Positions 13,873-46,135 of a stretch of 64,000 bases of DNA are shown here, one piece after another. Made by a program: the position numbers and the translations under genes. The stretch comes from Parvibaculum sp. (GTDB lineage: Bacteria > Pseudomonadota > Alphaproteobacteria > Parvibaculales > Parvibaculaceae). The stretch lies in assembly GCA_031291615.1 (NCBI GenBank), contig JARLIS010000061.1, positions 1-64,000 on the forward strand. Reading direction: 5' to 3'. The first letter of the stretch is position 1, and each line of letters opens with the position of its first letter. Under the pieces are notes generated by a model. It saw only the letters and a list, made by a program, of their open reading frames with translations, was not told the DNA's origin and searched no databases.

Positions 13873-14192
13873 GAAATGCTCGAAGTCTCGATGATCGCAT
13901 CCATCGCGGGCGAGTTGCAGGCAACCGGCATGGGAACGGCGCGCGCCTTCCGCGCGCCGCATCACTCCGCATCCATGGCCGCCCTTGTCGGCGGCGGTTT
14001 GCGTGCAAAGCCCGGCGAAGTGTCGCTCGCCCATCGCGGCGTGCTCTTTCTCGACGAGCTGCCGGAATTTCCCCGTCAGGTGCTCGATTCGCTGCGCCAG
14101 CCCATCGAAACCGGCGAGGCGGTCGTCGCCCGCGCAAACGCGCATGTGACTTACCCCGCGCGCTTTCAGCTCGTCGCCGCGATGAACCCCTG
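13873..14192 (+). pseudogene. comM: comM fragment 2 of 3, central AAA+ part (starts with second TSD copy)
   Basis: After the duplicated octamer (13873-13880) the comM frame resumes at 13881: CTCGAAGTC for L-E-V, then [24 protein letters not shown], the Walker B region [11 protein letters not shown] and the sensor region [10 protein letters not shown]. The frame breaks at the TG at 14191-14192, where the integrated island starts. The break falls between codon 350 (P) and the cysteine of the CRCGH zinc-type motif, which resumes at 46134. Confidence 0.95.
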
Positions 14193-15671
14193 TGGACGCG
14201 TTGCCTTGGCAGCGTCAGTTCCGGCTAAGGGTATGTAGAGCAAGTCGATTTCAACGGTGTCAGTACTGACATTGATGCGGTTGGTGATGGCCTCAACAAT
14301 GCTTCTCTTTTGGTCAAGAGAGTAGTCCGCCCACTTGCTGTGCAGGTCTCTGGCTTCGGCAATGGTCTGCTGGCTTGAGGCCTGCTGGACGCGCAGGAGG
14401 TCAAGTTCAGCCTGAGCGGCGGGAAGTTGGTCGTTGAGCTGTTTCTGGCGCTCTTCGAGCGGCTGGTAGCGGGCGGCAAAGCCGTCGCGCGAAATCCCGT
14501 CATCGAGGTAGAGGCGATAGACCTTGTCCATTTCGCGGGCGACCGACACCTGTTCTTCTTCGAGCTGCACAAGACCTGCTTCCTTGGTCCGGATCAGGCC
14601 GTCGTGCCGGGCCAGGTAGTCGGTGATGTGCTCCTCGGAGAGGAGGTAGCCATGTAGTTCGTTGTGGTAGATGGCTTCAAGGTCGGAGACGGGGATTTTG
14701 TTCCGGCAGGTGTAGCAGATGTATTTGGGCGAGTTGGACGGCACGTACATCTTCTCCCCGCACTGGCAGTACGTGACCCCGGCGAACAGATGCACCGGCT
14801 TGCGGGATGGCCGCTTCCGGCCCGCCCGGCGCTCGTCGAGGATGGCGTTGCACCGTACCCAGGTATCTTCCGAGATGAGGGCTTCGACCTCGTGGTGGAC
14901 CCAATCCTCCTCGGGTTTGAGCTGCCACTGCTTCTTCGCGTCGGTCGTGCGGGTGTAGTTCACCCGGCGCAAGCCCTTGGCGGTCGGGTCGCGCAGCAGG
15001 CGGTCGATGGTCGTGTCGGTGAAGGGTGAGCCGTTACGGGTACGGTGTCCTTGCTCATTGAGGAGCCGGGCGACCGTCTTCTTGCGGCGGTGCTCCAAGA
15101 ACAGCTCGTATATCTGTACCCTCACCGGCGCTTCCTTGGGGTCGAGTATGAGCTTGCCGTCCACCCACTGGTAGCCGTAGGTGGCTTGTCCGCCGAGGTT
15201 CTTGCCGAGCTTGGCGCGGATGGGAACGGAGGCGGCAACGCGGCTCGCGATCTCCTCGCGCTCCCACTGCGCCATCGCGGCGATCATAGTGTAGAAGAGA
15301 CGGCCGGCAGGCGATGTGGTGTCGATGCTCTCCTGGAGTGAGACGAGGTCAGCGCCGTACTCGCGGAAGATTTCGGCGAACTCCAGTAACTCTTTGGTGT
15401 TGCGTGCGAGACGCGCGAGCTTGGAGAAAACGAGACCGGTAATGTGGCCCGAGCGGATGTCCTTGAGCATCCGCTGTGCTTCAGGGTGCCCCGCGACGGA
15501 TTTACCGCTTACGGCTTCGAGGTGGTAGACCTCGCGAACATGCCAGTCTTTGGCCTCCGCATACAGGCGAGCGCGGCGCTCGTGATGCTCGGGACTTTCA
15601 CCCTGCGCCTGTTCCTCCGTAGACACCCGAATCCAGATACCCACCGCCTTGCGGCGCACTGCGGCTGACAT
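14166..15671 (-). CDS. Large serine recombinase (integrase of the island)
   Basis: A 501-residue serine integrase at the left end. Catalytic domain: [16 protein letters not shown] (nucleophile serine at about residue 17), [13 protein letters not shown] and [31 protein letters not shown]. It is followed by a recombinase domain, a zinc ribbon (YCQCGEK ... YICYTC), a coiled coil and a tail. The last eight residues (QGFIAATS) and the stop are encoded by host comM DNA beyond the crossover TG. In the excised circle the same frame would run on without a stop into the HTH-coding right end, giving 638 residues. Confidence 0.93.
14191..14207 (+). other. attL of the serine-integrase island
   Basis: Host comM sequence ends with ...AACCCC, then the shared TG (14191-14192), then the island arm TGGAC and GCGTTGCCTT (14198-14207). 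GCGTTGCCTT is the perfect inverse of AAGGCAACGC in attR. Joined in the circular form, the two arms sit symmetrically, five bases each side of TG, as expected for a serine-integrase attP. Confidence 0.85.
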
Positions 15672-15765
15672 CGAAGCCTCCGCCGATTATGATTGAGAGA
15701 AGTAGTGGAACGCACAAGCGCAAGTAATGACCGCGGTTGTTACGCTACAACGAGACTATACGTTT

Positions 15766-15788
15766 AACAGAATGAGCAATTCTGTTCA
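15766..15788 (+). repeat. Left 23-bp inverted repeat, putative recombinase site
   Basis: Begins AACAGAATGAGCAA and ends TTCTGTTCA. It is identical to the reverse complement of 19755-19777. The 7-bp arms and non-palindromic 7-bp spacer are like tyrosine-recombinase core sites. It lies 66 bp before the recombinase start. Confidence 0.85.
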
Positions 15789-15854
15789 TTAAATATTAAA
15801 TAGGTCAACCTCTTTCTTGCGCCGTTGTTGCGTAGAGAGAGGCGACCCACAGTT

Positions 15855-16430
15855 ATGATTTACGACACGGCCGGACACAGGAAGTATCTCACCATCAAAG
15901 AACGCGAAGCATTTATCGAGGCTGCGCAGCGTCTACGCCCCGAAAGCCGGACATTTTGTCTGACTCTCGCCTATACCGGCGCGCGCATTTCAGAAGTTCT
16001 CGCACTAACGCCAGAGCATATAGACACAGAGGCCGGTGTCGTCGTCATTGAAAGCCTCAAGAAACGACGTCGCGGCGTCTACCGTGCGGTCCCGGTGCCA
16101 ACGCGACTTCTTCGTCAATTCGAGGCCGTGCACGACATAGCGGCAGCGCAACTGGATACAACCCGCCGAACTTCTCGTATGTGGCCTTGGAGCCGAACGA
16201 CCGCATGGATGTTGGTAAAACAGATCATGGTCAACATCGGTGTCGCACCAAGTCGAGCTATGCCTAAAGCCCTTCGTCATGCCTTCGGTATTGGTGCGGC
16301 GCAAAAAAGCGTACCAATCAACGTCATTCAAAAGTGGATGGGACACGCTCGCATAACGACAACTGCAATCTATATGGATGTGGTCGGCGAAGAAGAGCGA
16401 GCGCTGGCACGGCGAATGTGGGGCTTCTAA
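15855..16430 (+). CDS. Tyrosine recombinase (phage integrase family)
   Basis: A roughly 191-residue tyrosine recombinase that consists of little more than the catalytic domain. Visible residues: the first arginine in AYTGARISEVLAL, the lysine region SLKKRRRGVY, H-x-x-x in ALRHAFGIGA (usually RH-x-F/H-x-x-R), and H plus the nucleophile tyrosine in WMGHARITTTAIYMDVV. Such short forms occur in integrons, XerC-like proteins and DNA invertases. ATG 15855 is chosen over TTG 15825/15828 because the recognised domain starts there. It lies just inside the left inverted repeat and 111 bp before the SIR2 gene. Confidence 0.87.
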   Translation: MIYDTAGHRKYLTIKEREAFIEAAQRLRPESRTFCLTLAYTGARISEVLALTPEHIDTEAGVVVIESLKKRRRGVYRAVPVPTRLLRQFEAVHDIAAAQLDTTRRTSRMWPWSRTTAWMLVKQIMVNIGVAPSRAMPKALRHAFGIGAAQKSVPINVIQKWMGHARITTTAIYMDVVGEEERALARRMWGF

Positions 16431-16541: not shown

Positions 16542-19500
16542 TTGGGGGGAAAATTGGCAACTGAAGCTATCAAACATCAATTCAAGCTGCCTTCGGTGCT
16601 CATCGATGCAGTTGCTACCGGAAACGCGATACTATTTTTGGGTGCAGGCGCTTCGTATGGGGCGTTACATCCGAAGAATCTTAAAATTCCGGATGGAAAC
16701 CAACTCCGAGATCAGTTGGCGGATAAGTTTCTTGGGGGTGATTTAAAAACCAAGCACTTAGTCGAGATTTCTCAATATTGCGAAAATGAAGCAGGACGAA
16801 TTGGATTTCAACGCTTCATCAGAGATATTTTTCTTGATTTTGGACCAGCTCCTTTCCACAGACTGATTCCGACATTCAAATGGCACGCCATTGCCACCAC
16901 CAATTTCGATTTGGTCGTCGATAAAGCATACTCAGAATGTATACAACCGCTTCAGGATCTCATTCCATTCTATAAAAACAACCAAGACATTGAAAAAGAG
17001 AGCAAGAAGAAACTAGACCCCGTGCAATTTCTCAAACTGCACGGATGCATCTCTCACTTTGATGATGAAACCGCGCCGCTTATTCTGACCTCAGAACAAT
17101 ATGTTCGTTTCAAAGTGAATCGGTCTCGGCTTTTTTCGCGCTTGGAGGATTACGCTCACGAAATTCCAATTATTTTTTGCGGATATGCAATCGCGGACCC
17201 TAATATCCAATCGGTCCTTTTTGATCTCTTCGATGATAAAATTCATCGTCCAACGTACTTTGCCGTACTGCCGGGGATAACTGAGGTTGAAGCTCGGTTC
17301 TGGCTCAAACACCGCATCACACCGATCAACGCCACCTTTGAAGAATTCATAACCGAACTCGACAAGGTTATTCCTGAAAAGAACAGGGCCCTTGCAAAAT
17401 ATCTTCCTCAGGGCGGGACCTCGCTAACCAAATTCTATGTCGTAACAGACGGAGTAGAACCGTCTACGATCGTCGAATTTCTGGAACAGGATGTTCTCCA
17501 CGTCCGCACCACAATGCCAATCGAACCGCAGGACGCAAAATCATACTACAGAGGGATCGATTTTGGCTTTGGCGGTATAGCAACTGAACTAGATGTGCGG
17601 CGGGCCGCCACCGACACAATTTTGCTCGACGTGATCTTGGCAGAAGAGCGCGATAGAAAAACGCCATTCGAATTATTCGTAATCAGTGGTGCCGCGGGTA
17701 ACGGCAAGACTACTGTTCTCAAACGGGTTGCCTGGGATGCGGCCAACGACTTCGATGCGCTCGTCTTATATCTCAGAGAAGGCGGCGCTATTCGCCCGGA
17801 GCAACTTGCCGAAATATACTCTCGGACAGGCCGCAGAATTTTCCTTTTTGCGGACCGTGCGGCCCTAAGGGCCGACGAAATTTCTGCCTGCGCATATTAT
17901 TGCAGCTCACGGAATATAAAGCTGTCGATTGTTACCGCTGAGAGAGATAACGAGTGGAATTCACGATGCGACGTCCTTGATCGATGGGTCACGGCATCAT
18001 TTCCGATACGCTACCTATCTGAAGGAGAAGTTCTTGTGCTTCTCGACAAGCTAGCTAGGCACCAAGCGCTGGGGTTACTAGCTGAGATGGATCATCCGGC
18101 GCGCGTTCGTGCCTTTGTTGATCGGGCTCAACGCCAGCTACTGGTCGCACTACATGAGGCCACGCTCGGTAAACGTTTCGAAGACATTGTGACCGATGAG
18201 TATGATCGAATCATGCCCGAAGAGGCCCGGTTTCTTTATTTGGATATATGCACATTGCATAGATTTGGCGTTGGAGTGCGGGCTGGCCTAATTTCCAGAG
18301 TTTCTGGAATTCAATTTAAAGACTTCGAAGACCGCCTTTTTTCTCCCCTTGAAAACGTAATTTTCAGCACCTTCGACAAATACGTCGGCGATAGATTATA
18401 TCGAACTCGGCACCCTCACGTCGCCGAAATTGTTTTTGAAAATATTCTTCAAGATCAAGAGAAGCGTTTTGATCAATTAATCAGAATCACCCGAGGCATA
18501 AATTTGGACTATTCCGTCGATCGTGAAGCCTTCAGACAGATAATTCGTGGGCGCCAGATCGCCAACTCTTTTGGGACAATCGAACTTGGTCGCAGCTTCT
18601 ACAAGCAGATCCGGGAGATAATTGGTCCTGATCCCTACCTCCATCATCAAGAGGGGGTGTATGAACTTGCCCATAAACTCGGAGACTTGCGGCGAGCTGA
18701 ACAATGTTTGGAGAAGGCGGAAGAGTTATCCCCCAACGATCGCACAATCCAGCACTCGCTCGCCAACTTGTACCGGCAGAGGGCCCTCGGCGAGCATAAT
18801 GATTTGCTACGGAGAGAGCTCCGCCAGCGGGCTTTATCGCGCCTCTCAAAGCTTACGAACGGAACCGGAAGTTCCCATGATGCAAACCTTCGGCTGCATC
18901 TGTTAATTGATGAATTCAAAGACTTGTTGCGATCAAACGACGGCAGGCAGCTATCCGCACTGGAGGAACGGGCCGTAGTCGATAAAATGAGTGGCATCGA
19001 GGCCGAGCTGGCCGCGTTACACCGAGCATTTCCAAACGACGAGTACACCTTGGTGACGGAAGCAGAATATCGGAAGAGCGTAAACGACAATCCGAGGGCG
19101 GTCGACGCGCTAGCGCGCGCCTTCGGTACCAATCCCAGACTTGAATGGATCGCTGTTCAGCTCGCCGATCTCCATACCAAAAACGGAAACCAAGACAAGG
19201 CGAAGGAAGTACTGCTAAAATGCACCACTGAAAACCCAATGGCAAAATCAGCGCACTTCAATTTGGGGCTCATTTACCTGGAATCGGATGAGCAACGCGA
19301 AAAAGTCTTGGCTTTGCAGCATCTCCGATCTGGTTTTTCAGACGGTGATACAAATTACGAAGCTCAGTTCTGGTATGCGCGAGAACTCTTCCTTACCCGT
19401 ACCCCGGATGAGGCGGAGAAAATATTTTCTCAACTTGCTGCTCGAAAAATCGCCCCAGCTCTGAAGACGTCTGTTCGAGGGAAAGTGCTCGAAGCGAACG

Positions 19501-19754: not shown

Positions 19755-19777
19755 TGAACAGAATTGCTCATTCTGTT
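19755..19777 (-). repeat. Right 23-bp inverted repeat, putative recombinase site
   Basis: Begins TGAACAGAATTGCTC and ends ATTCTGTT, the exact reverse complement of 15766-15788. It lies 45 bp after the SIR2-STAND stop and 16 bp before the next gene's start, marking the cassette border. Confidence 0.85.
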
Positions 19778-19793
19778 CAATGGCGGGGGGCCA

Positions 19794-21454: not shown

Positions 21455-21988
21455 TCATCCGGCCGCACGCTCATCGACCGCCGACCTGCCGTCCTTGCAA
21501 TAGAAGGTCATGACCAGCGACACGGCGTCGAAAAGGTGCATGCGCGTGTCCTCGTTCATCCACGGCTTGCGCGCAGGCGGCAGTTGGGTCTTGAGCGCAT
21601 GCACGCGCGCCGCGATGGCGCTTGCAATCTCATGGCGGGTGACCGCACCCGCTTCCGCGAAGCACTCACGGATATGCGTGCGGGAATAGCTGCGCACCTC
21701 GATCGCCTGTCCCTCCGCGTAGCCGGCGATGAGCCGCTGCAATCGCCGGCTGCGCCCGGAGCGCCGCGCGGTCGGCGCGGACAGGTCTTCGAGCACGAGC
21801 ACGTCGGGTTGTAGGTTTTCCACCAATCGCCCGAACGCTTCGAGCAAGCGCGCATTGCGCTGCGAGCCGCTCGCACCCCGCGTGCCCCAGTTGAGCGGCG
21901 AGAGCGGACCTTCAAAGAGCGCGAACGCAAATCCCCGAGTCGACGGTCGTATCGCGAGCACCAGCTCGCCCTTGTGCCGGCGCCTCAT
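21455..21988 (-). CDS. RuvC-like RNase H-fold protein
   Basis: A 177-residue protein with the layout of RuvC-type Holliday-junction nucleases. A first strand opens the fold (VLAIRPSTRGFAFALFEG, where the usual catalytic D is replaced in I-R-P). A second acidic motif follows (DVLVLEDLSAP), and a C-terminal D/E-containing helix (WMNEDTRMHLFDAVSLVMTF). The loss of the first aspartate suggests altered or absent nuclease activity. Its ATG overlaps the XRE gene's stop as ATGA, so the two are coupled. Confidence 0.65.
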   Translation of the reverse strand: MRRRHKGELVLAIRPSTRGFAFALFEGPLSPLNWGTRGASGSQRNARLLEAFGRLVENLQPDVLVLEDLSAPTARRSGRSRRLQRLIAGYAEGQAIEVRSYSRTHIRECFAEAGAVTRHEIASAIAARVHALKTQLPPARKPWMNEDTRMHLFDAVSLVMTFYCKDGRSAVDERAAG

Positions 21989-22341
21989 ATTGCGGTGAGG
22001 TTAGCGTTTCCGGTCGTTCGCTCGAACATTCGTCGGATCAGCTCGCGCTTGCGCTCGGCTTTCTCCGACGTGTCGCCCTCCAACTGCTCGTGGAAGCGAT
22101 ATGCGGCCTGCATGACCGTATCTTCGAGCTTCCCGTAGAAGCCCGTGAACACTTCGTACCCGAGCGAGCCAAAAATCACCCAATATGCTAGGATTTCCTC
22201 CGCGTTGGGCGAGTGCTTGTTTCGCTCAACGCAAGAGACCCGGTTGCGACCGCCCCTGGGTAACAGGGAGGCCAGCTCTTCCTGCGTCAGCCCCCATTCG
22301 CGCCGGAGGGTGTACAGGTAACAATGTACTTTCGACGACAT
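21985..22341 (-). CDS. XRE-family helix-turn-helix regulator
   Basis: A 118-residue protein starting at ATG 22341; an in-frame TTG six bases upstream is less likely. The N-terminal half has an XRE HTH (YTLRREWGLTQEELASLLP then NRVSCVERNKHSPNAEEILAY). The C-terminal half is a charged helical part (EGDTSEKAERKRELIRRMF) that could dimerise. It heads the operon with the RuvC-like gene and sits beside the nested inverted repeat at 22448-22587, a possible target. Confidence 0.82.
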   Translation of the reverse strand: MSSKVHCYLYTLRREWGLTQEELASLLPRGGRNRVSCVERNKHSPNAEEILAYWVIFGSLGYEVFTGFYGKLEDTVMQAAYRFHEQLEGDTSEKAERKRELIRRMFERTTGNANLTAI

Positions 22342-22447
22342 GACCAAAAGAATTGCCGATGATGTCTAAGCCGCATCATCGGGTGTCTTCATGTTCGCGC
22401 GGATCGAATCTCGCGCGAAGTGGGGATAATGCACGGGTGTCTGTGCA

Positions 22448-23250: not shown

Positions 23251-24540
23251 TCATACGATTGCGGAAATTGCGCCATAGCGCGTACAGAGGGCGCCGATAT
23301 GCTCCTCTTGCCGAGGCACCAAAACAAACACCCCGTTGCTTTTGTAGAGCCCGATGCCGAGGCGACGCAAGATCGAGCCGATCCATCGATTGGAAATGGG
23401 CCGCTCATATTCGTTGCCATATGCTGCGCTGAACGCCGATGTGATCGCGGCGACTGATATGGTCGGGTCCGGCCGCTCCGCCGCGAGACGGTGGAGGATC
23501 GTGAGCACCTGCCCCTCGCTGCTGGCGAGGCGCTCCGACAGCAAACCGCTCTGGAGCGCCGACGCCTTGGCACGGATCACCGCTCGCAAGGCGTCATCGG
23601 GAACGACCGAGAGCAGCGGCAGCAATATCTGGTTCATACGAGGCTCCAACGCGGGATCGGCAAGCGACGCATCGAGCGACACGACGAGCCGGTTGCGCAA
23701 GCGGTACATGAGGAGCTTGTTGCGCAGGTCGAGTGCTTCCGCTTTCTGCCCGTCGGGGAGGTTGATCGGCACGCCGTCGGCGCGTCCCGGCTGCATGTCG
23801 ATAGTGAGGAACCGGCTCTCCAGCGCCCGGTCGTCATAGGCGCGGCGCATGCCGACGATCTTGGGACCAAAGATCGTGAACGCCTGCGGATCGAACTCCT
23901 TCTTCTGCGTTACCTGCGTGCGCAGCACCGGGAAGCCCTTGGCGTTACCGTTGTTGAGTATCTTCACCAGCTCGGCTTTCTCATCCGAGAAGCGGAAGTC
24001 TGCCTCGTCGAAGATGAGCGTTCCCTTGAAGGTATCGAGCGTATGGAAAATGGGCGACACGGTGGATGCGCCGCTGGCGAAGAACGCCTTGTAGCAGAGC
24101 GAACCCACCACGAGGAGTGCGCGGGTTTTGCCGGTGCCGTAGTCGCCGCGAAACCGCAGGTACGGCAGCTCGTTGAAGGCGTCGTAGACCCAGGACAGGA
24201 GCACGTAGACGGCACACATGCCGGCTGCTTGATCGGTAAGGGATACATAGCGGCGAATATAAACTTCGATCTCGGCAAGTAGCTCCTCGACCGTACCGTA
24301 TTCGCTCGGCGCAGACGGCAGCAGCACCGCATTGTGTTTGATGAGGTTGTTGGAGGCGCGAACCGGCACGAAGAGTGTGTCGCGCAGCTTCACCTCCCGC
24401 ACGATCTCGATTTCGTTTCCCCGCGCCACCACGAGAGCGGTGTCGGCGGCCTCCGGCCGGAATACGGTTTCGACAATGGTGCCGTCGTCTTCGACGGCGG
24501 ATACAAGAAGCGATGGTTGGAGTGATGGACGTTCGGACAT
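23251..24540 (-). CDS. P-loop ATPase, plasmid/phage helicase-like
   Basis: A 429-residue ATPase. It has an N-terminal strand-rich part, a helical linker, then Walker A LRFRGDYGTGKTRALLV (about 128-144) and Walker B GTLIFDEADFRF (about 172-183). A sensor-like stretch follows (FTIFGPKIVGMRRAYDDRALESRFLTIDM), and then a C-terminal winged-helix-like domain (AITSAFSAAYGNEYERPISNRWIGSILRRLG). Similar ATPases occur in primase-helicase proteins and DUF3631-type mobile-element proteins. No primase domain is seen. Role in replication or defence is unknown. Confidence 0.65.
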   Translation of the reverse strand: MSERPSLQPSLLVSAVEDDGTIVETVFRPEAADTALVVARGNEIEIVREVKLRDTLFVPVRASNNLIKHNAVLLPSAPSEYGTVEELLAEIEVYIRRYVSLTDQAAGMCAVYVLLSWVYDAFNELPYLRFRGDYGTGKTRALLVVGSLCYKAFFASGASTVSPIFHTLDTFKGTLIFDEADFRFSDEKAELVKILNNGNAKGFPVLRTQVTQKKEFDPQAFTIFGPKIVGMRRAYDDRALESRFLTIDMQPGRADGVPINLPDGQKAEALDLRNKLLMYRLRNRLVVSLDASLADPALEPRMNQILLPLLSVVPDDALRAVIRAKASALQSGLLSERLASSEGQVLTILHRLAAERPDPTISVAAITSAFSAAYGNEYERPISNRWIGSILRRLGIGLYKSNGVFVLVPRQEEHIGALCTRYGAISAIV

Positions 24541-24722: not shown

Positions 24723-26303
24723 ATGCGTTACTTCCTCTACTGCCGAAAATCGAGCGAGGCAGAGGACCGTCAGGTTCTCTCCATCGAGAGCCAGCAGGCA
24801 GAAGTGTTGAAACTGCGTGAGGGCAAGCCCGACATGATAATTGTCGGGACGTACGAGGAGAGCAGGAGCGCGAAAGCGCCGGGTCGGCCGCTCTTCGACG
24901 AAATGTTACGCAGGATCGAGCGCGACGAGGCGGACGGCATTATTGCCTGGCACCCCGACCGCTTGGCCCGCAATTCGGTCGATGGCGGGAAGATCATCTA
25001 TCTGCTCGACCAGAAGCGGCTCAAGAATCTGGTCTTTGTCACCTACAGCTTCGAGAACAACCCGCAAGGGAAGTTCATGCTGTCCATTATCTTCGGCTAT
25101 TCGAAGTACTACGTCGACAGCCTCTCGGAGAACGTGAAGCGCGGGAACCGGTTGAAGCGAGAGAAAGGTTGGCTGCCATGCTTGGCACCCATCGGCTACC
25201 TCAACGACCGGGCGGCGAAGACCATCGTCCCCGATCCTGATCGCTTCCCGCTGATCCGTCGCATCTTCGAATTGGGAATGACGGGCAGCTACTCGGTTAA
25301 GGACATTGCGCTACAAACTCAGAAATGGGGCCTCAAGTCGCCGCAGCGGAAGCGAAGTGGCGGCAAGTACCTCGCGCCGGCCGTCGTCTACTACATCCTG
25401 ACCAACCCCTTCTACAGTGGCGTACTCACCCATGACGGTCAGACTATGCCGGGGGCACACCAGCCGGTCGTAACGCGAGAGGAGTTCGGGCGGGTCCAAG
25501 CGGCACTGCGGCGCCCCGGCAAAGCGGCACCAAAGAGGCACGTCTTTGCCTTTACGGGCCTCATGCGCTGCGGGGAGTGCGGCGCGGCGATCACGGCGGA
25601 GCACAAGCGCAATGCCTATGGCTCCCGCTACGTCTATTATCACTGTGCCAAGACGCGGCGCGACGTTCGCTGCACGCAGCGCGTCATTCAGGCCAAGGAC
25701 CTGGAAACACAGCTGCTCGCAATAGTCGAAGGGGTGGCGATCAAACCGCGCATGCACGCAGCCATGCTCAAGCTCCTCCGCGAGAACGGAAAAGATTGGC
25801 ACGCCGAGCAGCAGGCTCGCCTCGCGGTATTGGAGCGTACGACAAAACTACTCGCCCAGGAACGGGCGGCGCTGACGACACTGCGGCTCCGGGAATTGAT
25901 CGACGATGCGGAGTTCATGCGCGAGCGACAGCGAATCGAGCGGGAGGACCAAGCGCTCGCGGAAACCAAAGCAGCAACAGAAAAGGCAAATTGGTTCGAA
26001 CTCGTTCCAAACGTCATTTCGGGGCTCAGCAGAGCCGCCGTTTGGTTTCAAAGCGGCGATGTTGTCATACAACGCAGGCTTCTTGATTCCGTAGCTTCGA
26101 ACTTGGTTCTGACCGACAGAAAAGTCTTATATGACGCCACATTTCCGTTGCCGACGGGTTCGAACTCGGCCGTTCACCCAAACGAGCGGGCCGTGCTTAG
26201 TGATATTCGAACATTGTGGGAAGATCGCGATCCAAAGTTTTTGAAGTTGGTCGATCTCTTCACTGAGCTTCTTGTTCGGGACGAGAAGAAAATGTCTGCC
26301 TAG
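24723..26303 (+). CDS. Large serine recombinase (second)
   Basis: A 526-residue serine recombinase. The catalytic domain opens RYFLYCRKSSEAEDRQVLSI, with the nucleophile serine near residue 10, and continues with IIAWHPDRLARNSVDGG and FMLSIIFGYSKYYVDSLSENVKRG. A recombinase domain follows (SPQRKRSGGKYLAPAVVYYI), then a zinc ribbon (LMRCGECGAA ... YYHCAKTRR ... RCTQR) and a coiled coil. Its 3' end overlaps a convergent small gene. It is unlike the left-end integrase in sequence and may belong to an older element inside the island. Confidence 0.92.
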   Translation: MRYFLYCRKSSEAEDRQVLSIESQQAEVLKLREGKPDMIIVGTYEESRSAKAPGRPLFDEMLRRIERDEADGIIAWHPDRLARNSVDGGKIIYLLDQKRLKNLVFVTYSFENNPQGKFMLSIIFGYSKYYVDSLSENVKRGNRLKREKGWLPCLAPIGYLNDRAAKTIVPDPDRFPLIRRIFELGMTGSYSVKDIALQTQKWGLKSPQRKRSGGKYLAPAVVYYILTNPFYSGVLTHDGQTMPGAHQPVVTREEFGRVQAALRRPGKAAPKRHVFAFTGLMRCGECGAAITAEHKRNAYGSRYVYYHCAKTRRDVRCTQRVIQAKDLETQLLAIVEGVAIKPRMHAAMLKLLRENGKDWHAEQQARLAVLERTTKLLAQERAALTTLRLRELIDDAEFMRERQRIEREDQALAETKAATEKANWFELVPNVISGLSRAAVWFQSGDVVIQRRLLDSVASNLVLTDRKVLYDATFPLPTGSNSAVHPNERAVLSDIRTLWEDRDPKFLKLVDLFTELLVRDEKKMSA

Positions 26304-26567: not shown

Positions 26568-27743
26568 ATGGAGCGTAACCCATTCATCTCATACTTTGCC
26601 CTCACCAACGGCCGCCCGCCAAGTCGCCGGTTTGGCATCAAACAGGCGGATCGTCTGTCCCATGTTTATGCGATCGGCAAGACCGGCACAGGAAAATCAA
26701 CACTCCTGCACACTCTGGTTCAACAAGACCTCTTTGCACGAAGGGGGTTTTGTCTCGTGGACCCGCACGGCGATCTCGCCGACAAGGTTGCAGCGGACGC
26801 CCAACAGTCAGGTCGCACCGACATTATATATTGGAACGTGCCTGATGCTTCATCGCCCTATGGCTACAACCCGCTTCGCCATGTGCGTGCCGAGAAACGT
26901 TCCTTGGCCGTCTCAGGCATTCTCGAAGCATTCAAGAAGCTCTGGGACGATGCCTGGGGACCGCGCATGGAGCATATCTTGCGCAACGCGCTCTATGCGC
27001 TGCTCGAAACCCCTGATGCCATTCTGTCGGATATACTCCGTCTCATATCGGACGAGGTTTTCCGCAAAAGCGTGGCCCACCAAGTCACGAATGAGCCCGT
27101 GCGAGACTTCTGGTTGAAGGAATTTCCGCAATATTCCTTCCGCTACCGAGCCGACGGCATCGCACCAATCCAGAACAAGGTGGGCGCGTTCCTTGCCGAT
27201 CCGACGCTTCGCCGTATCCTGACGGCACCGCAACAAGACCTGCATCTGCGGCAGCTCATGGATGCCGGCGGCGGCCTCATCGTCAATCTCGCGAAAGGAG
27301 AAATCGGCGAAGACAGCGCCAACCTTCTCGGCAGTTTGCTAGTGACGACCATTGGGCTTGCGGCATTCAGCCGAGCGGAGACGGAGCAGTCGATACGGCG
27401 GCCGTTCTTCGTCTACATCGACGAATTTCAGAGCTTTACAACGCTTTCCACTGCCAACATGGCATCGGAGCTACGGAAATATGGGATCGGCCTCACTCTG
27501 GCCCACCAGTATCTTCATCAGCTCGAACTGGACGTTCGCCACGCCGTGATCGGCAACGCCGGCACGCTCATCGTTTTTCGGGTCGGCGCAGAGGACGCTA
27601 CCTTTCTTGCGCGGGAGTTCTCGCCGACATTCCAGATGGAAGACCTGCTCAACCTCCCGAACTACCAAGTCTTTCTCAAGCTCATGATTGATGGGGCACC
27701 GAGTAGACCATTCAGCGCCGATACCGTATCGCCACGCATGTAA
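26568..27743 (+). CDS. VirD4/HerA-like DNA-translocating ATPase
   Basis: A 391-residue ATPase resembling type IV secretion coupling proteins and DUF87/HerA helicases. It has Walker A YAIGKTGTGKSTLLHTLVQQ (about 34-53), then LVDPHGDLADKV, a helical insert, INLAKGEIGEDSA, Walker B FFVYIDEFQSFT (about 278-289), and LRKYGIGLTLAHQYLHQL near the C-terminus. It has no predicted membrane segments and no relaxase nearby, so conjugative function is not supported; mobilisation help or defence are alternatives. Confidence 0.85.
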   Translation: MERNPFISYFALTNGRPPSRRFGIKQADRLSHVYAIGKTGTGKSTLLHTLVQQDLFARRGFCLVDPHGDLADKVAADAQQSGRTDIIYWNVPDASSPYGYNPLRHVRAEKRSLAVSGILEAFKKLWDDAWGPRMEHILRNALYALLETPDAILSDILRLISDEVFRKSVAHQVTNEPVRDFWLKEFPQYSFRYRADGIAPIQNKVGAFLADPTLRRILTAPQQDLHLRQLMDAGGGLIVNLAKGEIGEDSANLLGSLLVTTIGLAAFSRAETEQSIRRPFFVYIDEFQSFTTLSTANMASELRKYGIGLTLAHQYLHQLELDVRHAVIGNAGTLIVFRVGAEDATFLAREFSPTFQMEDLLNLPNYQVFLKLMIDGAPSRPFSADTVSPRM

Positions 27744-33580: not shown

Positions 33581-33967
33581 ATGAAACTACTGTTGCGTCG
33601 GGATCAGCAGGCAGGGGGATTGCTGGGCAAGACCGTCACCTTTTCCCTCAGCGTGCGCGCCGAACTCACCGATGACGAGAAGGCGAACATTGCCAAGTAC
33701 AAGCTTGGCAAGACCGTCTTGTATACGAACGCCGAGGGGCCAGACCCCAAAGATTTAGGGCTGCGGCATATCGGCTATGCCCTTGCCTACAAGATGCTCA
33801 ACCTTTCGCTGAGCGTTGATGATCTCCAGAACGGCAAACAGATCGCCTGCCAAGAGATCACGGAGATGCTGGCCGTCGAGGAGCAGATCAAGAAAGCGGC
33901 CGAAACCTTCAAGCTCGTCCTCGAATCGGCCGCGCGCTTCGGCGGGGACGAGGTTCTTGAGTTCTAA
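33581..33967 (+). CDS. Small protein paired with HerA-nuclease gene
   Basis: A 128-residue protein, start ATG 33581 with GGGGG five bases upstream. N-terminal strands (MKLLLRRDQ, TVTFSLSVRAEL) precede helical segments (NIAKYKLGKTVLY; EITEMLAVEEQIKKAAETF). It overlaps the downstream 903-residue ATPase gene by 11 bp, so translation is coupled and the two products probably interact. No family recognised. Confidence 0.7.
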   Translation: MKLLLRRDQQAGGLLGKTVTFSLSVRAELTDDEKANIAKYKLGKTVLYTNAEGPDPKDLGLRHIGYALAYKMLNLSLSVDDLQNGKQIACQEITEMLAVEEQIKKAAETFKLVLESAARFGGDEVLEF

Positions 33968-36668
33968 CCTCGGAAATTACTTCCGGGTCTCGCCGCGCGA
34001 GCGAGATGTGCGCGAATCCAGAGTGCTCGTCGAGAAGACGGAGCGACTCTGGCAAGACGCGCCCGCACGGCTGCGCGACCCCGATATGCTGGTGGTCGAA
34101 ACCGGGCTTGCCGTCTTTCGGCGGTTTGGGCGTACTCCCGGCGACGCCGTTGTCTTGGCCGTTGCCGACTGCATCGAGTGGCTCATGTCTCTGGAAGGAC
34201 TCGACCGGATTGCGGTCAACTGGCAGGTGATCGAGACCGACATCGACGAAGCGATCAAGCTCCGCCGATACATCCACCGGCAGCGCAGGTGGCTCATAGA
34301 CTTCGACACCCGCTTCGCGCTCTGGCAGGAGACGATCTTTGATGCATTTGTCCCGTTCCTGGCTGCACTGCCGGGCGCGTGCTTTGAAGGGAGTGTTGAG
34401 TTTGGGACGTTCGAGACCCCACTCATCGACATACTCGACGAGCCTGCGTCAGTTATCGAGCCGCTGCTCAGGAGCTTCTTTGACAGGAATGCGCAGGATG
34501 CCGACCTCTTCGCAGCGCTGCGTGATCGGGCAAACGACAACGCCAAACGAGCGTCCGGCATCGATCCAGATAACAAAGACACGCAATATCGACGCCCCCT
34601 CATCATGCCGACCGGCCAGCGCGGCAAAAGCGGGCAGGAACTCGTCGAGCTGTATCTTCGCGGAACCGGGCTGAGGGCGCTGTTCGAGACGCCGATCCCT
34701 GTTGCCATGCCTCCGGCGCTGCGCTTCGAGCACTGCCACATCATCGGCGGCACGGGCCACGGCAAGACGCAGCTCATGCAGCGCATGATCTGTGCCGACC
34801 TCGCCGCCGCGATGCAGGAGAAGCGCGCCGTCGTTGTCATCGACAGTCAGGGCGACCTCATCAACTCGCTTGTCCGGCTCGCCTGCTTTACACCTGGCAT
34901 ACCGGGGAGCTTGGCCGACCGGCTGGTGCTCATCGATCCGGAGGACATCGAATATCCCGTCGCCCTCAATATGTTCGACGCGCATCTGGAGCGCACCTCG
35001 GGATATCGCCCGGTCGATCGGGAGCGCGTGCAAAACGGTGCCATCGAGCTGTACGAATATTTCTTCGGCGCGCTCTTGGGGGCCGAGCTGACGCAGAAGC
35101 AAGGCGTCATCTTCAAGTACCTCGCCCGACTCATGCTCACCATCCCGCAGGCGACCATCCACACCCTCATGCAGCTCATGGAGGACGGGACAAAGTTCCG
35201 GCCATACATGGAGAACTTGCCGGGATCGGCCCGGCATTTCTTCGAGACGGAGTTCTTCCACCCGTCGTTTGCGGCGACCAAGAAGCAAATCTTGCGGCGG
35301 CTATGGGGCGTCCTCGCCACCCCTGCCTTCGAGCGGATGTTCTCGCACCCGGAAAACAAGGTCGATCTCTTCGAGGCACTCAATGAGGGCAAGATCGTCC
35401 TCATCAACACCTCGAAGGATTTGCTCAAGCAGGAAGGCTCCAGCCTCTTCGGCCGCTTCTTCATCGCCATGCTCACCCAAGCGGCGCTGGAGCGTTCCAC
35501 CGTGCCGGCGCCGGCCCGCACGCCGGCATTCTTCTATGTGGACGAGGCCCAGGAGTATTTCGATGAGAACATCGAGACCATCCTCAATCAGGCCCGCAAG
35601 TACCGCGTCGGCCTCACGCTGGCGCACCAGAACCTCGATCAGCTCGGCCCCCGGCTGCGTGCGGCCGTCCTCGCCAATACCAGCATCAAATGCGCAGGCG
35701 GTGTCAGCGCGCGGGATGCCCACGCCCTCGCACCCGAACTGCGCACCGGTCCAGACTTCATCGAGCGGATGCGCAAGCGCGGCGGCCAGACCGAGTTTGC
35801 GGCGTGGATGAAGGGGGTCACGGGACAGGCCATCAAACTGACGGTGCCTTTGGGCCTGCTCGCGCAGGTGCCGAAGCTCACGGAAGACCAGCTTGAGTTT
35901 CTGTACGTGCGTAATCGCGAGCGGTACGCGGCCCCGCCAGTATTGCCGGCGCCGCAGGACTTCGAAAGTCTCCCCGAAGAGGATCGGGCGGAAGAGGCGC
36001 CACGGCCCGTTCACGAGGAGCCAAAGGCGGGACCATTGGAGCAGCAGCCACATTCTGCAGCTACAGCTCCAGGAGAGCCGTTACCCCTGCCGCCGAGCGG
36101 GAACCTGCATATAAACGCTCCGCGACCGCCGATGCCTGTCGTGAGCGATGGCAATCTGGGTAAGGGTGGGGCGAAGCACCGCTATCTGCAATCAATGGTC
36201 AAGCAGCTCGGCGAACAGCACGGTTTCAGAGCAACCATCGAAGCGCCAATTGCGGGCAATAACGGGCAGATCGATGTGCTGTTGGAGCGCCCCGGTCTGT
36301 CGCTCGCGTTTGAGATTTCCGTCACGACGCCGCTGGAGCACGAGATAGAGAACGCGCGAAAATGCCTTGCCGCAAGTGCCGGGCGCGTCGTCATTGTCGT
36401 CTCGCGTCCTCGATCGCTTCCGCGCTGCAAGGAGCTAGTTGTCTCGTCCCTCACGCCGGAGGAACAGAATCGTGTCGAGGTACTCTCGCCCGACGATCTG
36501 ATGTCGTTCATCGCGAGCCATGCGGCTTCGCCCGAGATGACGGAAGGAATGGTGCGCGGCTATCGCGTTGTGCGGCGACACACCACGACAACGCCGGAGG
36601 ATGCTCGGGAACGCGCGGAGGCGCTGGCAAAAGTTATTACACGGTCATTGAGAAAATTGGAGGACTAA
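33957..36668 (+). CDS. HerA/VirD4-like ATPase fused to nuclease-like domain
   Basis: A protein of about 903 residues whose start is taken as TTG 33957 (SSNLGNYFRVSPRERD); the earlier in-frame start at 33816 would lie wholly inside the upstream gene. A DUF87/HerA-type ATPase follows a helical N-domain: Walker A HIIGGTGHGKTQLMQRM (near 265) and Walker B AFFYVDEAQEYFDE (near 525). A proline-rich linker leads to a C-terminal PD-(D/E)XK-like domain (NNGQIDVLLERPGLSLAFEIS), with D present and the usual K replaced. It resembles DNA translocase-nuclease proteins seen in defence and mobile elements. Confidence 0.78.
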   Translation: MSSNLGNYFRVSPRERDVRESRVLVEKTERLWQDAPARLRDPDMLVVETGLAVFRRFGRTPGDAVVLAVADCIEWLMSLEGLDRIAVNWQVIETDIDEAIKLRRYIHRQRRWLIDFDTRFALWQETIFDAFVPFLAALPGACFEGSVEFGTFETPLIDILDEPASVIEPLLRSFFDRNAQDADLFAALRDRANDNAKRASGIDPDNKDTQYRRPLIMPTGQRGKSGQELVELYLRGTGLRALFETPIPVAMPPALRFEHCHIIGGTGHGKTQLMQRMICADLAAAMQEKRAVVVIDSQGDLINSLVRLACFTPGIPGSLADRLVLIDPEDIEYPVALNMFDAHLERTSGYRPVDRERVQNGAIELYEYFFGALLGAELTQKQGVIFKYLARLMLTIPQATIHTLMQLMEDGTKFRPYMENLPGSARHFFETEFFHPSFAATKKQILRRLWGVLATPAFERMFSHPENKVDLFEALNEGKIVLINTSKDLLKQEGSSLFGRFFIAMLTQAALERSTVPAPARTPAFFYVDEAQEYFDENIETILNQARKYRVGLTLAHQNLDQLGPRLRAAVLANTSIKCAGGVSARDAHALAPELRTGPDFIERMRKRGGQTEFAAWMKGVTGQAIKLTVPLGLLAQVPKLTEDQLEFLYVRNRERYAAPPVLPAPQDFESLPEEDRAEEAPRPVHEEPKAGPLEQQPHSAATAPGEPLPLPPSGNLHINAPRPPMPVVSDGNLGKGGAKHRYLQSMVKQLGEQHGFRATIEAPIAGNNGQIDVLLERPGLSLAFEISVTTPLEHEIENARKCLAASAGRVVIVVSRPRSLPRCKELVVSSLTPEEQNRVEVLSPDDLMSFIASHAASPEMTEGMVRGYRVVRRHTTTTPEDARERAEALAKVITRSLRKLED

Positions 36669-39712: not shown

Positions 39713-40237
39713 CTATCTAAGGCGTTTAACTGAGAGGGTGTCGTCCGTATCTGCTGGGTAATTGTGGCGGCGTAACATGTTGGGCAAAAGCGCGCCTATT
39801 TTCTGCAACTGGTTACCCTTGGGCCGAGTGACATCTCGTTCCCATTTTGCCAAGACGCCTTCGTCGACCGCAAGCCGCGATGCCAACCGCTTCCGAGAAA
39901 TGCCTTGGCCTTCCCGCGCCCGAACGATCTGCTCCCCCAACGTCTGGGGCTCCGGGAACGGGTCATAGCTCAAGAAGCGGATGATGGCCGGGATGTACCG
40001 AACCTCCGGCTCGGTCTTGTTCTTCTCCCAATTCAGGTACGTGAACGCGCCTACGCCTATGAGGTTTGCAGCCTCCTTTTGGAGCAGGCCGAGGGTCTTG
40101 CGTCGTTTAAACAAGTGCTCCGCTAGGGAGTTTGGCTCCTCCACATACGGGCGATAAACCGCAGCGCGCAACGATATTTGGACGTATGGCAGGAAGGCAA
40201 CGCGCTCATGTTCCTGTGCCTTGGCGATGAGTTGCAA
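39713..40237 (-). CDS. Double-HTH protein, homologue of the right-end HTH tail
   Basis: A protein of about 174 residues from TTG 40237. It has ERVAFLPYVQISLRAAVY at residues 12-29, then a first HTH (HLFKRRKTLGLLQKEAANLIG ... YLNWEKNKTEPEVRYIPAI), a short proline-rich linker (DPFPEPQTLGEQI) and a second HTH (GQGISRKRLASRLAVDEGVLAKWE). It is homologous to the right-end tail (45698-46133). The N-terminal IAKAQEHERVAF also resembles the island integrase tail (AAKATRPQ) joined to GVAF. It may derive from an integrase-HTH fusion whose integrase part is lost. Confidence 0.75.
   Translation of the reverse strand: MQLIAKAQEHERVAFLPYVQISLRAAVYRPYVEEPNSLAEHLFKRRKTLGLLQKEAANLIGVGAFTYLNWEKNKTEPEVRYIPAIIRFLSYDPFPEPQTLGEQIVRAREGQGISRKRLASRLAVDEGVLAKWERDVTRPKGNQLQKIGALLPNMLRRHNYPADTDDTLSVKRLR
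40175..40224. other. Internal att-like site inside HTH gene
   Basis: Positions 40175-40203 are identical to the island's right arm at 46100-46128 (29 bases ending AAGGCAACGC). Five bases further on lies TG at 40209-40210, the same spacing as the crossover TG in attR. The right half (GTGCCTTGGC) resembles, but does not equal, the left arm. It may be a leftover attR or attP of an earlier element. Confidence 0.55.
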
Positions 40238-41505: not shown

Positions 41506-41507
41506 GA

Positions 41508-42395: not shown

Positions 42396-43963
42396 GCAAC
42401 CTCCAACAGGTTGATCCGGGTCGCCATTGAATAGAGGGGCTCCAGAGTGTCGAAACGATAGGCGTCCAGCGAGATGCCGTTATATTCGGCGAGACGCAAC
42501 TTCGTGAGGTTCATGTCGATCCGCGGAAACAGGTAATAGTCGAGTGGGGCCTCGTTCGCGCGATCCATCCGCAAGGCGATTGTCACGTCTGGCCAGAGGC
42601 TCGTATCGAACCGGATATGCCATCTGAGGGAGCCCGCATCCGTCGTCGCGCAACGGCAGATGACAAGCGAGGCTGTGAACTCCCGGTTGATCGTCAGGAG
42701 ATCGCTGCGGTCGTCGCGGGTGACATGGCCGCCGGCGCGCCCGATCTCGGCGACGGTACTCGCGACGATCTCCGGATACATCCGTCGCAGGGCCCGGTTG
42801 GTCTCGACATATTGATAGTCGCGGTCGGGCGTGAAGCCGACCAGCTGATAGGCGCGCAACAGGCTGCCGAAGCGCGAGCGATACATCGAGCTTGAGGCAA
42901 GGCCGTCGACCTCGTCGATCATCAGGCCCGACAGAAAGCCGCGCATCTCGTAAAGCGCCTGCAGGCCTTCCAGCATGTCTTCGTCGGAGAACCGGCGCGC
43001 GCGCTCGCCGATGATGGTTTGCGCTGCCTCATACTGGTCCCGGTCGACGATCGCCTCGAAGACGCCATCCGCCCGGATCCACATCTCGGGACTGTTATGA
43101 ACGCGCTTGCGCTTCAGTTTGAAGGAGGCGCGGTTCCAGACATTGTTGCCGATGTATTTTTCGTTGATCAGGATTTGATGCACGGTGCCGCGCGTCCAGG
43201 GCCGGCCAAGATCGGTCAGAAGGCCTCTGGCATTCAGGGCGGCGGCGATGTCGGTCTCGTTCGCGCCGTTGAGGAACGAGCGGTAGATCATGCGAACGGT
43301 TTCAACTTCCTCCGGCGGGCCCGGGACCAGGACGACCCGGTCAGTCTGGATGCTCTTGTGCTCGCCCCGAAGGAGTTCGCCCTTCGGCACGCCGTTCTGG
43401 TCGATGCGCATGCGGCGCAGCCCATAGCCGGGCGGACCGCCTTGCCGGAATCCGAGTTCGATCAGATGGCACTGGCCGGTAAAGACCTTTGCCGAAAGCT
43501 CGCGGCTATATTCACCCGCCATGGCGCGCTTGACGCCTTTGACGATGGTCGACACCGGGCTGCCGTCGTTTTCGAATTGCTCGGCGCAGTACTGCACGGC
43601 AATGCCGGCGCGCTTGCAGATATATTCGTAATAGGCGCTCTCGTCCGCATCCTGAAACCGGCCCCAGCGGCTCACGTCATAGACAAGAATAATGTCGAAG
43701 TTCGCGCGGCCGTTCTCGACGTCATCGATCAACTGTTTGAGCGCATCGCGACCATCAAGGCTGAGCCCGCTCTTGCCTTCATCGGCATAGGTGCGGACGA
43801 CTTCGAACCCGCGCCGGTCGGCATATTGCCGGATAATCTCCGCCTGGTTTTCGGTCGAGTACTTCTGATGCTCGGTCGACATACGGACATATTCAGCTGC
43901 CCGAACGGTCTTCAGTGGCAGTGATCTGCCTCGTTCTGCGTCGGGGTTGATGCCTGTGTTCAC
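42392..43963 (-). CDS. Serine recombinase (third), with ParB/RepB partners
   Basis: A 523-residue serine recombinase. Catalytic part: AAEYVRMSTEHQKYSTENQ (nucleophile serine near residue 29), IILVYDVSRWGRFQDADES and STIVKGVKRAMAGEYSRELS. A recombinase domain follows (RGTVHQILINEKYIGNNVW). Unlike the other two, no zinc-ribbon cysteines were seen, and the C-terminal 200 residues are a different, strand-rich domain. It heads the operon with the ParB- and RepB-like genes. Confidence 0.9.
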   Translation of the reverse strand: MNTGINPDAERGRSLPLKTVRAAEYVRMSTEHQKYSTENQAEIIRQYADRRGFEVVRTYADEGKSGLSLDGRDALKQLIDDVENGRANFDIILVYDVSRWGRFQDADESAYYEYICKRAGIAVQYCAEQFENDGSPVSTIVKGVKRAMAGEYSRELSAKVFTGQCHLIELGFRQGGPPGYGLRRMRIDQNGVPKGELLRGEHKSIQTDRVVLVPGPPEEVETVRMIYRSFLNGANETDIAAALNARGLLTDLGRPWTRGTVHQILINEKYIGNNVWNRASFKLKRKRVHNSPEMWIRADGVFEAIVDRDQYEAAQTIIGERARRFSDEDMLEGLQALYEMRGFLSGLMIDEVDGLASSSMYRSRFGSLLRAYQLVGFTPDRDYQYVETNRALRRMYPEIVASTVAEIGRAGGHVTRDDRSDLLTINREFTASLVICRCATTDAGSLRWHIRFDTSLWPDVTIALRMDRANEAPLDYYLFPRIDMNLTKLRLAEYNGISLDAYRFDTLEPLYSMATRINLLEVA

Positions 43964-44475: not shown

Positions 44476-45048
44476 CTATTTGAGAATTTTTTCATATTGG
44501 CGCAGGAGAGAAACTGTTTTGGGAAGAGATTGGGCTTGAAGGGTATCGAGATACTCGGTTGCAGTTTTTGGAGGATTTTTAAGACGTCGAAGACAAGTTT
44601 GAACGGCTATCAGAGCAGCCGCTTTATCTAGGTCGATCTGAAAGTTTATGAACTCGTCCGGGTGTATGGCTTCGAGATTGTATGGTGACAGAGCCTCGTT
44701 CGGAAAATCCTTCAAGTTGAAGGTTACAATCGCATCGGCCCTCGCATGAATTGCCGCTGCTACTACATGACGATCATTGGTATCCGGTAGCGTTATTGTT
44801 GGAATCAGGTGCTCGTATCCGGCGACCAGACAATCCGGCACAGCCTGGTTCATCAACTCTCTTGTACGCTCAAGAGTTGCTCTATCCAGGTCGGAGCGAT
44901 TTTGCAGGAGGTTCCCAATCCATTCCTCGTGAATCTCGTCGGTCCATTTTGCTCGAAACAAATTCGCCGTTGCGAGTTGCATAAGCAAATCCCGCAACGG
45001 CGCCGGATATAGGACGCACGCGTCGTAAATGACGGTGTAGCTCGCCAA
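44476..45048 (-). CDS. PIN-domain toxin
   Basis: A 190-residue PIN-family RNase-like protein. Acidic residues typical of the fold are visible: D in VIYDACVLYP, E/D in WTDEIHEEWIG, DTNDRHVVAAAIHARADAIVT and NLKDFP. It starts at TTG 45048, directly after the antitoxin's stop TGA (45049-45051), so translation is coupled. It pairs with the HTH antitoxin. Confidence 0.88.
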   Translation of the reverse strand: MASYTVIYDACVLYPAPLRDLLMQLATANLFRAKWTDEIHEEWIGNLLQNRSDLDRATLERTRELMNQAVPDCLVAGYEHLIPTITLPDTNDRHVVAAAIHARADAIVTFNLKDFPNEALSPYNLEAIHPDEFINFQIDLDKAAALIAVQTCLRRLKNPPKTATEYLDTLQAQSLPKTVSLLRQYEKILK

Positions 45049-45507
45049 TCAATACCCCATATCGAGTTCCTGCGCTTGAGCCGCCAGCTTATCCAGTGCC
45101 GCATTGCTCTCGCTCTCGCGCCTCTGCTTGTACTCCTGCAGATCGCGAAACTTGATTCGCCGATGCGTTCCGACCATACGGAACGGTATTCCAGACGCTT
45201 GAAGCAAACCAATCAAATAAGGGCGAGACACATTTAGAAAGTCTGCCGCTTCTTGAGTGGTAAGTTCGGCGTGAATCGGAATCAAAGTCACGGCGTTCCC
45301 ACGAGACATTTCCGTCAGCAGATGAGACAGCAGCCGCGCAGCGGCATGCGGAAGCGTCAGGACTTGACCATTATCAAGTCGCACACGGAAATCACCTTCC
45401 GGCAGGGCGGAAGACAGAATTCGGCTCGACTCGGTAGCCAGTTGAGCGTCCTTTTCGGATGGAACGATCGTGTCAGGCTTGTCGAGCAACGTATTTAGGG
45501 CGGTCAT
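45049..45507 (-). CDS. HTH antitoxin of the PIN pair
   Basis: A 152-residue protein. Start ATG 45507 follows AGGGAG; the longer frame to 45705 is not preferred. It has an excisionase-type HTH (LTTQEAADFLNVSRPYLIGL then IPFRMVGTHRRIKFRDLQEY). The C-terminus is helical. It should neutralise the PIN toxin encoded next and repress the operon. Confidence 0.85.
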   Translation of the reverse strand: MTALNTLLDKPDTIVPSEKDAQLATESSRILSSALPEGDFRVRLDNGQVLTLPHAAARLLSHLLTEMSRGNAVTLIPIHAELTTQEAADFLNVSRPYLIGLLQASGIPFRMVGTHRRIKFRDLQEYKQRRESESNAALDKLAAQAQELDMGY

Positions 45508-45697
45508 AGCAATCTCCCTTATGGCTCGGCAGAACTGAGCATTATATGGACTGCTTCGGCCGTAAACGCAATAATCGAAACTAGCGCAAACGCAATAACC
45601 GAAAGTTAATGTGTGTGCCTGATTGCCACACCGATAGAGACATGTTGTCCGAACTGTGCGTGTCGAAAGCCGTCCAAACTGTTGGGTTCCCGGGCTT

Positions 45698-46133
45698 CTA
45701 ACCACGTTGCAAGAAGGTACGTAGTTTCGCGCGGTATTTCGCTTGGGGCTCTCGAAGACCCTTTTCCCATCCCGCCAGCGCGCCTTCGTCGACCCCGAGC
45801 TTCGCCGCTAGCCGCTTCCGAGAGATGCCTTGGCCCTCGCGCGTGCGGACTATCCGCTCGCCCAATGTCTGGGGCGCCGGGAACGGGTCATGACCCAAAA
45901 AGCGGATGATGGCCGGGATGTAGCGCACCTCCGGCTCAGTCTTGCTCTTTTCCCAGTTCATGAATGTAAAAGCCCGTACCCCAACGAGCTTCGCGGCTTC
46001 CTTTTGGATTAGGCCAAGAGTTTTGCGCCGCTTAAGTAGATGTTCTGCAAGAAAATTCGGCTTTTCGACATACGACCGAAAAACCGGTGCGCGCAGGGTT
46101 ATTTGGACGTATGGCAGGAAGGCAACGCCGTTT
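45698..46133 (-). CDS. Right-end HTH tail, separated from the integrase by integration
   Basis: A frame open from 46133 to 45698 encodes VAFLPYVQITLRAP, a first HTH (HLLKRRKTLGLIQKEAAKLVG ... FMNWEKSKTEPEVRYIPAI) and a second HTH (GQGISRKRLAAKLGVDEGALAGWE). In the integrated state it has no good start before ATG 45961. In the circular form it is joined in frame to the integrase through CAA across the TG crossover, with no stop. It is homologous to 39713-40237. So it is the C-terminal HTH part of an integrase-HTH fusion. Confidence 0.7.
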
Positions 46134-46135
46134 TG
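46119..46135 (+). other. attR of the serine-integrase island
   Basis: AAGGCAACGC (46119-46128), CGTTT and then TG (46134-46135), followed by comM sequence CCGCTGCGGCC. Together with attL this gives the reconstructed symmetric attP. Confidence 0.85.

Follow-up and report, generated by a model that had tools for sequence, protein, structure and literature searches.

Here, we report that integrative elements from several phyla form one family in which the attachment site attP lies within one gene for a large serine integrase with a helix-turn-helix (HTH) tail, a gene that integration cuts. We put the probability of this reading, in which the role of the tail is inferred, at about 0.8. The family was recognized from a 31.9-kb island in 64,000 nucleotides (nt) of Parvibaculum sp. 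(contig JARLIS010000061.1, positions 1 to 64,000; "the window" below is this whole stretch). Judged from sequence, the architecture is real, and both the in-frame continuity across attP and the protein sequence of the tail are kept by selection.

Results

The island (14191 to 46135; GC content 0.56, versus 0.65 in the flanks) is inserted between the MNPC and RCG codons of a gene that we take to be comM, whose product is a YifB-family Mg chelatase-like ATPase (family assigned on the intact copy of a relative). The core TG stands at both ends (14191 to 14192 and 46134 to 46135), and joining the flanks rebuilds the comM codons MNPC-RCG. Joining the island ends gives attP as AAGGCAACGC-5 nt-TG-5 nt-GCGTTGCCTT, with the 10-bp inverted arms as the sole long symmetric stretch. 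Large serine integrases have short attachment sites with inverted arms and a 2-nt core that sets orientation; the sites found here are short, their arms are inverted, and a 2-nt core gives their orientation. The comM gene is cut twice in the window (a piece at 8520 to 9260 and the two pieces in Table 1), a second insertion of ∼4.6 kb lying near codons 257 to 259, to the left of the island.

The joined frame crosses the core without a stop (493 integrase codons, CAA on the core, and 144 more; 638 codons in total). In the inserted state, the integrase is 501 amino acids (aa) long, and its last 8 codons are read from comM antisense. An earlier note on this DNA had claimed the symmetric attP with its 10-bp arms and TG core, the uninterrupted 638-residue frame, and an inserted integrase ending after eight host comM residues; the computed join reproduced the first two and confirmed the third. 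All recognized integrase domains are kept within the 493 retained codons (Pfam Resolvase, PF00239, 8e-32; Recombinase, PF07508, 3.7e-19), the zinc ribbon PF13408 scoring 20.4 bits, under its cutoff of 25.3, and the tail holds two Cro/C1-type HTHs (Pfam). Traced back from the core, the HTH frame stays open for 21 codons of comM antisense before meeting a stop, and this stretch contains no ATG, GTG, or TTG; on the other side of the core, a start first appears in the frame at codon 59, within the first HTH. When the 435-nt right end was shuffled by mononucleotide, the joined frame stayed open in 8 of 2,000 cases, a weak null, since the right end is coding.

Relatives were sought with the window integrase aligned to one that is 60% identical to it, and 210 were confirmed in genome contigs. 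The set analyzed consists of the best 80 of the 210 (55 to 66% identity), the sole ones retrieved, which come from many phyla, including two metagenome-assembled genomes (MAGs) labeled archaeal. The 81 integrase loci (one viral) comprise 58 that border the left portion of comM and whose core could be placed, plus 23 others. When the genomes or records behind them were searched with a profile built from nine HTH tails (E ≤ 1e-8), matches came from 41 of 49 and from 20 of 31, or 61 of 79 genomes with the viral record excluded. As a single query (E ≤ 1e-20), the window tail matched 4 of 289 sampled genomes of the window's class, its own included, and first scans of genome and viral contigs with the two window HTHs gave no tblastn-confirmed relative. 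The integrase had no match in plasmids at E ≤ 1e-60 or in phages at E ≤ 1e-40; the HTH had five matches in plasmids and two in phages, all distant and partial. Integrase and HTH ends share a contig in 16 comM genomes (judged from equal lengths), with the nearest ends 25 to 57 kb apart and 19 integrase-to-HTH distances of 25 to 87 kb overall. An exact end-overlap test for circularity was positive for 0 of 5 contigs.

For each genome with both ends, the integrase end and the HTH end were joined virtually at the core. A first pairing set (CA core, arm match of at least 6 of 8) gave 37 pairings, 36 of them in frame, and a second set, comprising every further locus, gave 18, of which 15 were in frame. 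HTH loci without a recognizable arm (e.g., L203, L222, and L238; L, G, and C numbers are our handles for loci, genomes, and contigs) were left unpaired. Under a uniform rule (CA core, arm match of at least 6 of 8, and at least 50 codons open), 51 of 53 within-genome joins were in frame, compared with 1,095 of 2,279 cross-genome pairings (48%). By the earlier note, a junction with a stop or a frame change would have spoken against its reading; the outcome favors the note, as in-frame joins were present, at least once each, in all 44 testable comM genomes, which span several phyla. The uniform rule removes two out-of-frame rows (L277, weak arm; L263, 13 open codons), and the two that remain are second ends in genomes that also hold an in-frame end (L276 in G414, nearer the integrase; L218 in G455).

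The phase of the frame at the core falls 27/0/31 over the 58 comM-left integrases and 26/35/1 over the HTH ends, and the two agree (24 and 27 matched versus 1 and 1 mismatched). The same arm sequence, GCGTTGCC, translates to VA(F) in one phase class and to ALP in the other. The spacing from the last conserved integrase motif to the core varies by dozens of nucleotides, yet the third phase is absent, a restriction for which the truncated integrase alone would have no need. An 82-row maximum-likelihood tree (65 rows labeled, 30/35/0) has six phase changes on the best tree, three of them forced by well-supported branches (starred), and the five of six switched loci with a testable HTH join in frame (L133, L150, L156, L173, and L181; the sixth is L134). 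A chance open frame across attP was rejected by the within- and cross-genome joins together with these phase changes. A few cores need comment. One of the 58 (L170) has GT instead of CA, in a genome without an HTH match; L105 has an attP-like junction with a stop a few codons later; and at L120, L134, and L176 the core was placed at least 9 nt off, since the comM alignment ran on, with the phase unaffected because protein alignments shift by whole codons.

Fused relatives, which the earlier note had suggested as a check, were found as uncut natural genes in five MAGs (G389, 615 aa; G405, 641 aa; G412, 647 aa; G444, 720 aa; G462, 637 aa). They carry Resolvase, Recombinase, and HTH domains, with a single HTH in G389 and more than two HTH stretches in G444; L160 and L163 are fused but broken copies, and G462 holds a cut copy in comM in addition to its uncut fusion. 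G389, G405, and G412 carry Patescibacteria-type fusions in chromosome-like contigs (infB, mreB, miaA, and others by eye), with comM, elsewhere in the genome, whole over the queried part and a second serine recombinase 5 to 17 kb from the fusion gene; these elements were presumably inserted by the second recombinase, leaving attP whole.

Cores and targets vary. On the integrase strand of G411, the core is TG, not CA, and the island sits in comM in inverted orientation; its ends join in frame. G429 and G448 carry integrase and HTH on one contig outside comM, which is whole over the queried part; their cores, TT and AC, respectively, are present on both ends, both joins are in frame, and the G429 arms show a matching change on both sides (GGGAACGC/GCGTTCCC). 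The frame has been kept through about six phase switches (three firm), four cores (CA, TG, TT, and AC), and more than one target.

Three further arrangements were seen at HTH ends. The inverted insertion in G411 (L136/L209) creates a 519-codon open frame of the comM 5′ half and the HTH tail. In G227:C239 (6066 to 9806) and G451:C87, an HTH end and then an additional comM 3′ fragment come after a whole comM, an arrangement suggestive of repeated insertion and a rebuilt target gene. At G365:C21 (19415 to 19846), an HTH end is open in frame into an HtrA-type protease-like gene (by eye); a second HTH end close by is decayed.

An in-frame ATG, GTG, or TTG occurs within the first 25 codons of 61 of 63 HTH ends, and an ATG in 15 of 63 (3 of the 63 are natural fusions). 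The earlier description of an HTH half without a good start holds in the window; elsewhere, where such starts are common, the cut-off HTH may be weakly expressed. The ratio of nonsynonymous to synonymous change (pN/pS) was 0.25 to 0.44 in nine HTH tail pairs, with synonymous sites near saturation in several; by this measure, the HTH ends are under purifying selection.

An AlphaFold model of the 647-residue G412 fusion (63-row alignment) had a mean predicted local distance difference test (pLDDT) score of 86.4 and a predicted template modeling (pTM) score of 0.43. It predicts an integrase with long helices at 347 to 390 and 396 to 450, a low-confidence joint, a strand at 507 to 516, and two confident HTH bundles at 530 to 646; pLDDT falls below 50 at 146 to 155, 481 to 488, and 496 to 509, the last being the attP-encoded joint. 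The best fold matches of the fusion were the SPbeta and Bxb1 integrases (low global TM scores). Compared by sequence with solved structures, the tail profile matched DBP48 best, followed by MBF1, P22 C2, 434-type repressors, and HipB.

Role of the tail

As read from the sequence, the rejoined or uncut gene encodes integrase, linker, and HTH tail. When the element integrates at its core, which at 58 of 81 loci is in comM, the gene is cut at the linker; the inserted element keeps a complete integrase core, and the tail lies at its far end, mostly without an ATG. In the free element, the tail may exert DNA-binding control on the attP-by-attB enzyme or on its dose. Its loss would leave the inserted element with a tailless integrase acting in excision only, with a putative directionality factor, and excision would restore the fused gene; the form of the integrase would thus report the state of the element. 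We hold this account, in which the tail acts in the free element and its loss leaves an excision-only integrase, tentatively; a role in the free element is favored because only an intact attP links the tail to the integrase. Just as tentative is the wider proposal of a self-reporting integrase over many phyla, in which recombination rewrites its own enzyme (tail on when free, off when inserted) and so sets direction or commitment. The likelihoods given for functions of the tail are judgements.

Several observations weigh against a split gene of this kind and against reading its form as a state signal. The joins are related by descent, so 44 genomes are not 44 events. Neither a circle nor a transcript was seen: the free circle of the window island is inferred from both ends, with none seen in the genome, and the joins are virtual save for the five fusions, all in MAGs. 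At E ≤ 1e-8, the HTH search was negative for 18 of the 79 genomes with an integrase relative, through either absent contigs or true loss, and these 18 include the genome of the 60%-identical query integrase (G004/G449, L056/L167). Ahead of the integrase gene, inverted repeats exceeded those of 15 shuffles at 10 of 78 loci and did not share one motif, giving no sign of a general operator. The earlier proposal that the protein form distinguishes integrated from free elements agrees with integration splitting one gene; it is undercut by the uncut gene in chromosome-like contigs of three Patescibacteria-type genomes, so that "fused" is not simply "circle."

The tail could instead be a part needed for integration (DNA targeting, synapsis, or stability), its later loss being a tolerated by-product and no switch. 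This would explain frame keeping and purifying selection equally well, and the integrase carries the tail precisely in the state in which attP is intact; however, the recognized integrase domains are all in the retained part, and Bxb1 and phiC31, well-studied large serine integrases, are known to integrate without a comparable tail. We regard it as somewhat unlikely, but it and autorepression (below) are close rivals of the account above.

A little less likely still, in our view, is a tail that serves as an autorepressor and lowers integrase expression while the gene is uncut. The first HTH resembles the phage-type repressors P22 C2, 434, DicA, and RstR, the second the HTHs of MBF1 and of the ICEBs1 regulator, and in three genomes the uncut gene sits beside an intact comM target, as if held in check. 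Against this reading, no conserved operator emerged before the integrase gene (the 10 of 78 loci above), and the one strong palindrome of the window recurs at 19755 to 19780 and looks like the site of another cassette.

We consider it improbable that the tail is a fused recombination directionality factor (RDF), with the fused form favoring attL-by-attR and the tailless form attP-by-attB recombination. A joined RDF is workable, as entry 9dxd, titled as an integrase-RDF complex, has SPbeta YokA and YotN in one 620-residue chain; the fused form would, however, be present just when attP alone is available, which by argument is counterproductive, and a factor active at the wrong time is the less likely choice. 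Finally, an independent HTH gene with an upstream frame open across attP by accident, which the frequent starts near the core (61 of 63 HTH ends within 25 codons, 15 with ATG) would suit, is highly improbable given the joint integrase and HTH phases (24 and 27 versus 1 and 1), the natural fusions, and the missing start in the window, and as a family-wide account it is refuted by phase matching within genomes.

Other features of the window

Coordinates are given in Table 1. The arm AAGGCAACGC occurs three times in the window (0.17 expected). Its third copy (40194 to 40203) leads into a second HTH end, 72% identical to the first, with CA at equal spacing (synonymous divergence, dS, 1.11; nonsynonymous divergence, dN, 0.19), which is probably a relic attachment half within the island. 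A serine recombinase gene followed by two RepB/ParB-like genes (40606 to 43963) is possibly a nested element adjoining this second end.

A 26-nt inverted repeat (96%) at 15763 to 15788 and 19755 to 19780 bounds 4 kb that contain a gene like those of small tyrosine recombinases (15825 to 16430, by eye) and a SIR2/STAND/TPR gene (16542 to 19709); the segment looks like an invertible or mobile defense cassette. A near-identical 21-mer sits before the integrase gene in L146. Genes for VWA, PP2C phosphatase, and weakly kinase-like proteins stand in a row at 28256 to 31754, a cargo similar to the TerY-type phosphorylation triad.

Table 1. Positions of the split gene, its attachment sites, and other features in the window
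Feature	Position	Strand	Basis
Large serine integrase, inserted form, 501 aa, last 8 codons comM antisense	14166..15671	-	Pfam PF00239, PF07508
493 integrase codons common to both protein forms	14193..15671	-	Join analysis
HTH tail with two Cro/C1-type HTHs, 145 codons counted from the core and a stop, without in-frame upstream start	45698..46135	-	Pfam; frame scan
attL, made up of core TG and the half-site of the element (arm 14198-14207)	14191..14207		Join analysis, arm search
attR, made up of the half-site of the element (arm 46119-46128) and core TG	46119..46135		Join analysis, arm search
comM middle piece, left of island	13873..14193	+	Comparison with relatives; family named from relative's intact copy
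comM 3′ piece, right of island	46134..46640	+	Comparison with relatives
Second HTH end, preceded by a GCGTTGCCTT arm of its own and a CA core	39713..40210	-	Arm search; HTH-end comparison
XRE-like regulator (weak match) and 177-aa protein, common to relatives	21455..22347	-	Comparison with relatives
429-aa protein divergent from rec2	23251..24540	-	Present in 8 of 15 other sequences searched; no Pfam match
Second serine recombinase rec2	24723..26303	+	Pfam; relatives (53%, 28%, 27% identity) on Patescibacteria-type fusion contigs
TraG/VirD4-like ATPase, common to relatives	26568..27743	+	Comparison with relatives; domain match
Second TraD/HerA-like ATPase, common to relatives	33816..36668	+	Comparison with relatives; domain match

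Comparison with known systems

How integration and excision are controlled is a central question for serine integrases, in which the two are known to be separated by a separate directionality factor; here, the reaction would edit the C terminus of its own enzyme. The family offers natural pairs of tailed and tailless enzymes with ready attachment sites for probing a state-dependent recombinase, and orphan two-HTH frames at comM borders are explained as cut-off integrase tails. Searches of the open-access literature turned up no split serine integrase-HTH gene.

By its description, the magnesium chelatase/ATP-dependent protease gene that large serine recombinases target in PMC10083194 (12.4% of predicted site-specific integrases) is the same kind of target, and the recombinase class is the same; the main text of that paper contains neither "helix-turn-helix" nor "C-terminal," and its passages on these recombinases describe no split integrase-HTH gene. 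In the Wolbachia phage WO sr1 group, unlike here, the HTH genes are described as separate regulators, and the portions of PMC9203015 on this group describe no attP-spanning frame.

For the archaeal suicidal SSV-type integrases (PMC8371274), as here, attP is part of the integrase gene, and integration interrupts that gene. These enzymes are tyrosine recombinases, and their two parts are called inactive pseudogenes, whereas the window enzyme is a serine recombinase whose integrase domains are unsplit, with the core in one piece. The sections of PMC8371274 on self-disrupting recombinases call these exclusively archaeal, unlike the mainly bacterial family reported here.

The other of the two nearest precedents, beside the archaeal integrases, is the integration-dependent immunity of mycobacteriophage BPs and its relatives, in which, according to the account of the switch in PMC4557955, attP lies in an open frame and the integrated protein is C-terminally shorter. 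In both systems, attP stands within an open frame and integration alters the C terminus; in BPs, the form of the protein reports the state of the element, as it would here. The BPs protein is a repressor, from which 33 residues bearing an ssrA-like degradation tag are lost; in the present family, an HTH tail is lost from a serine integrase.

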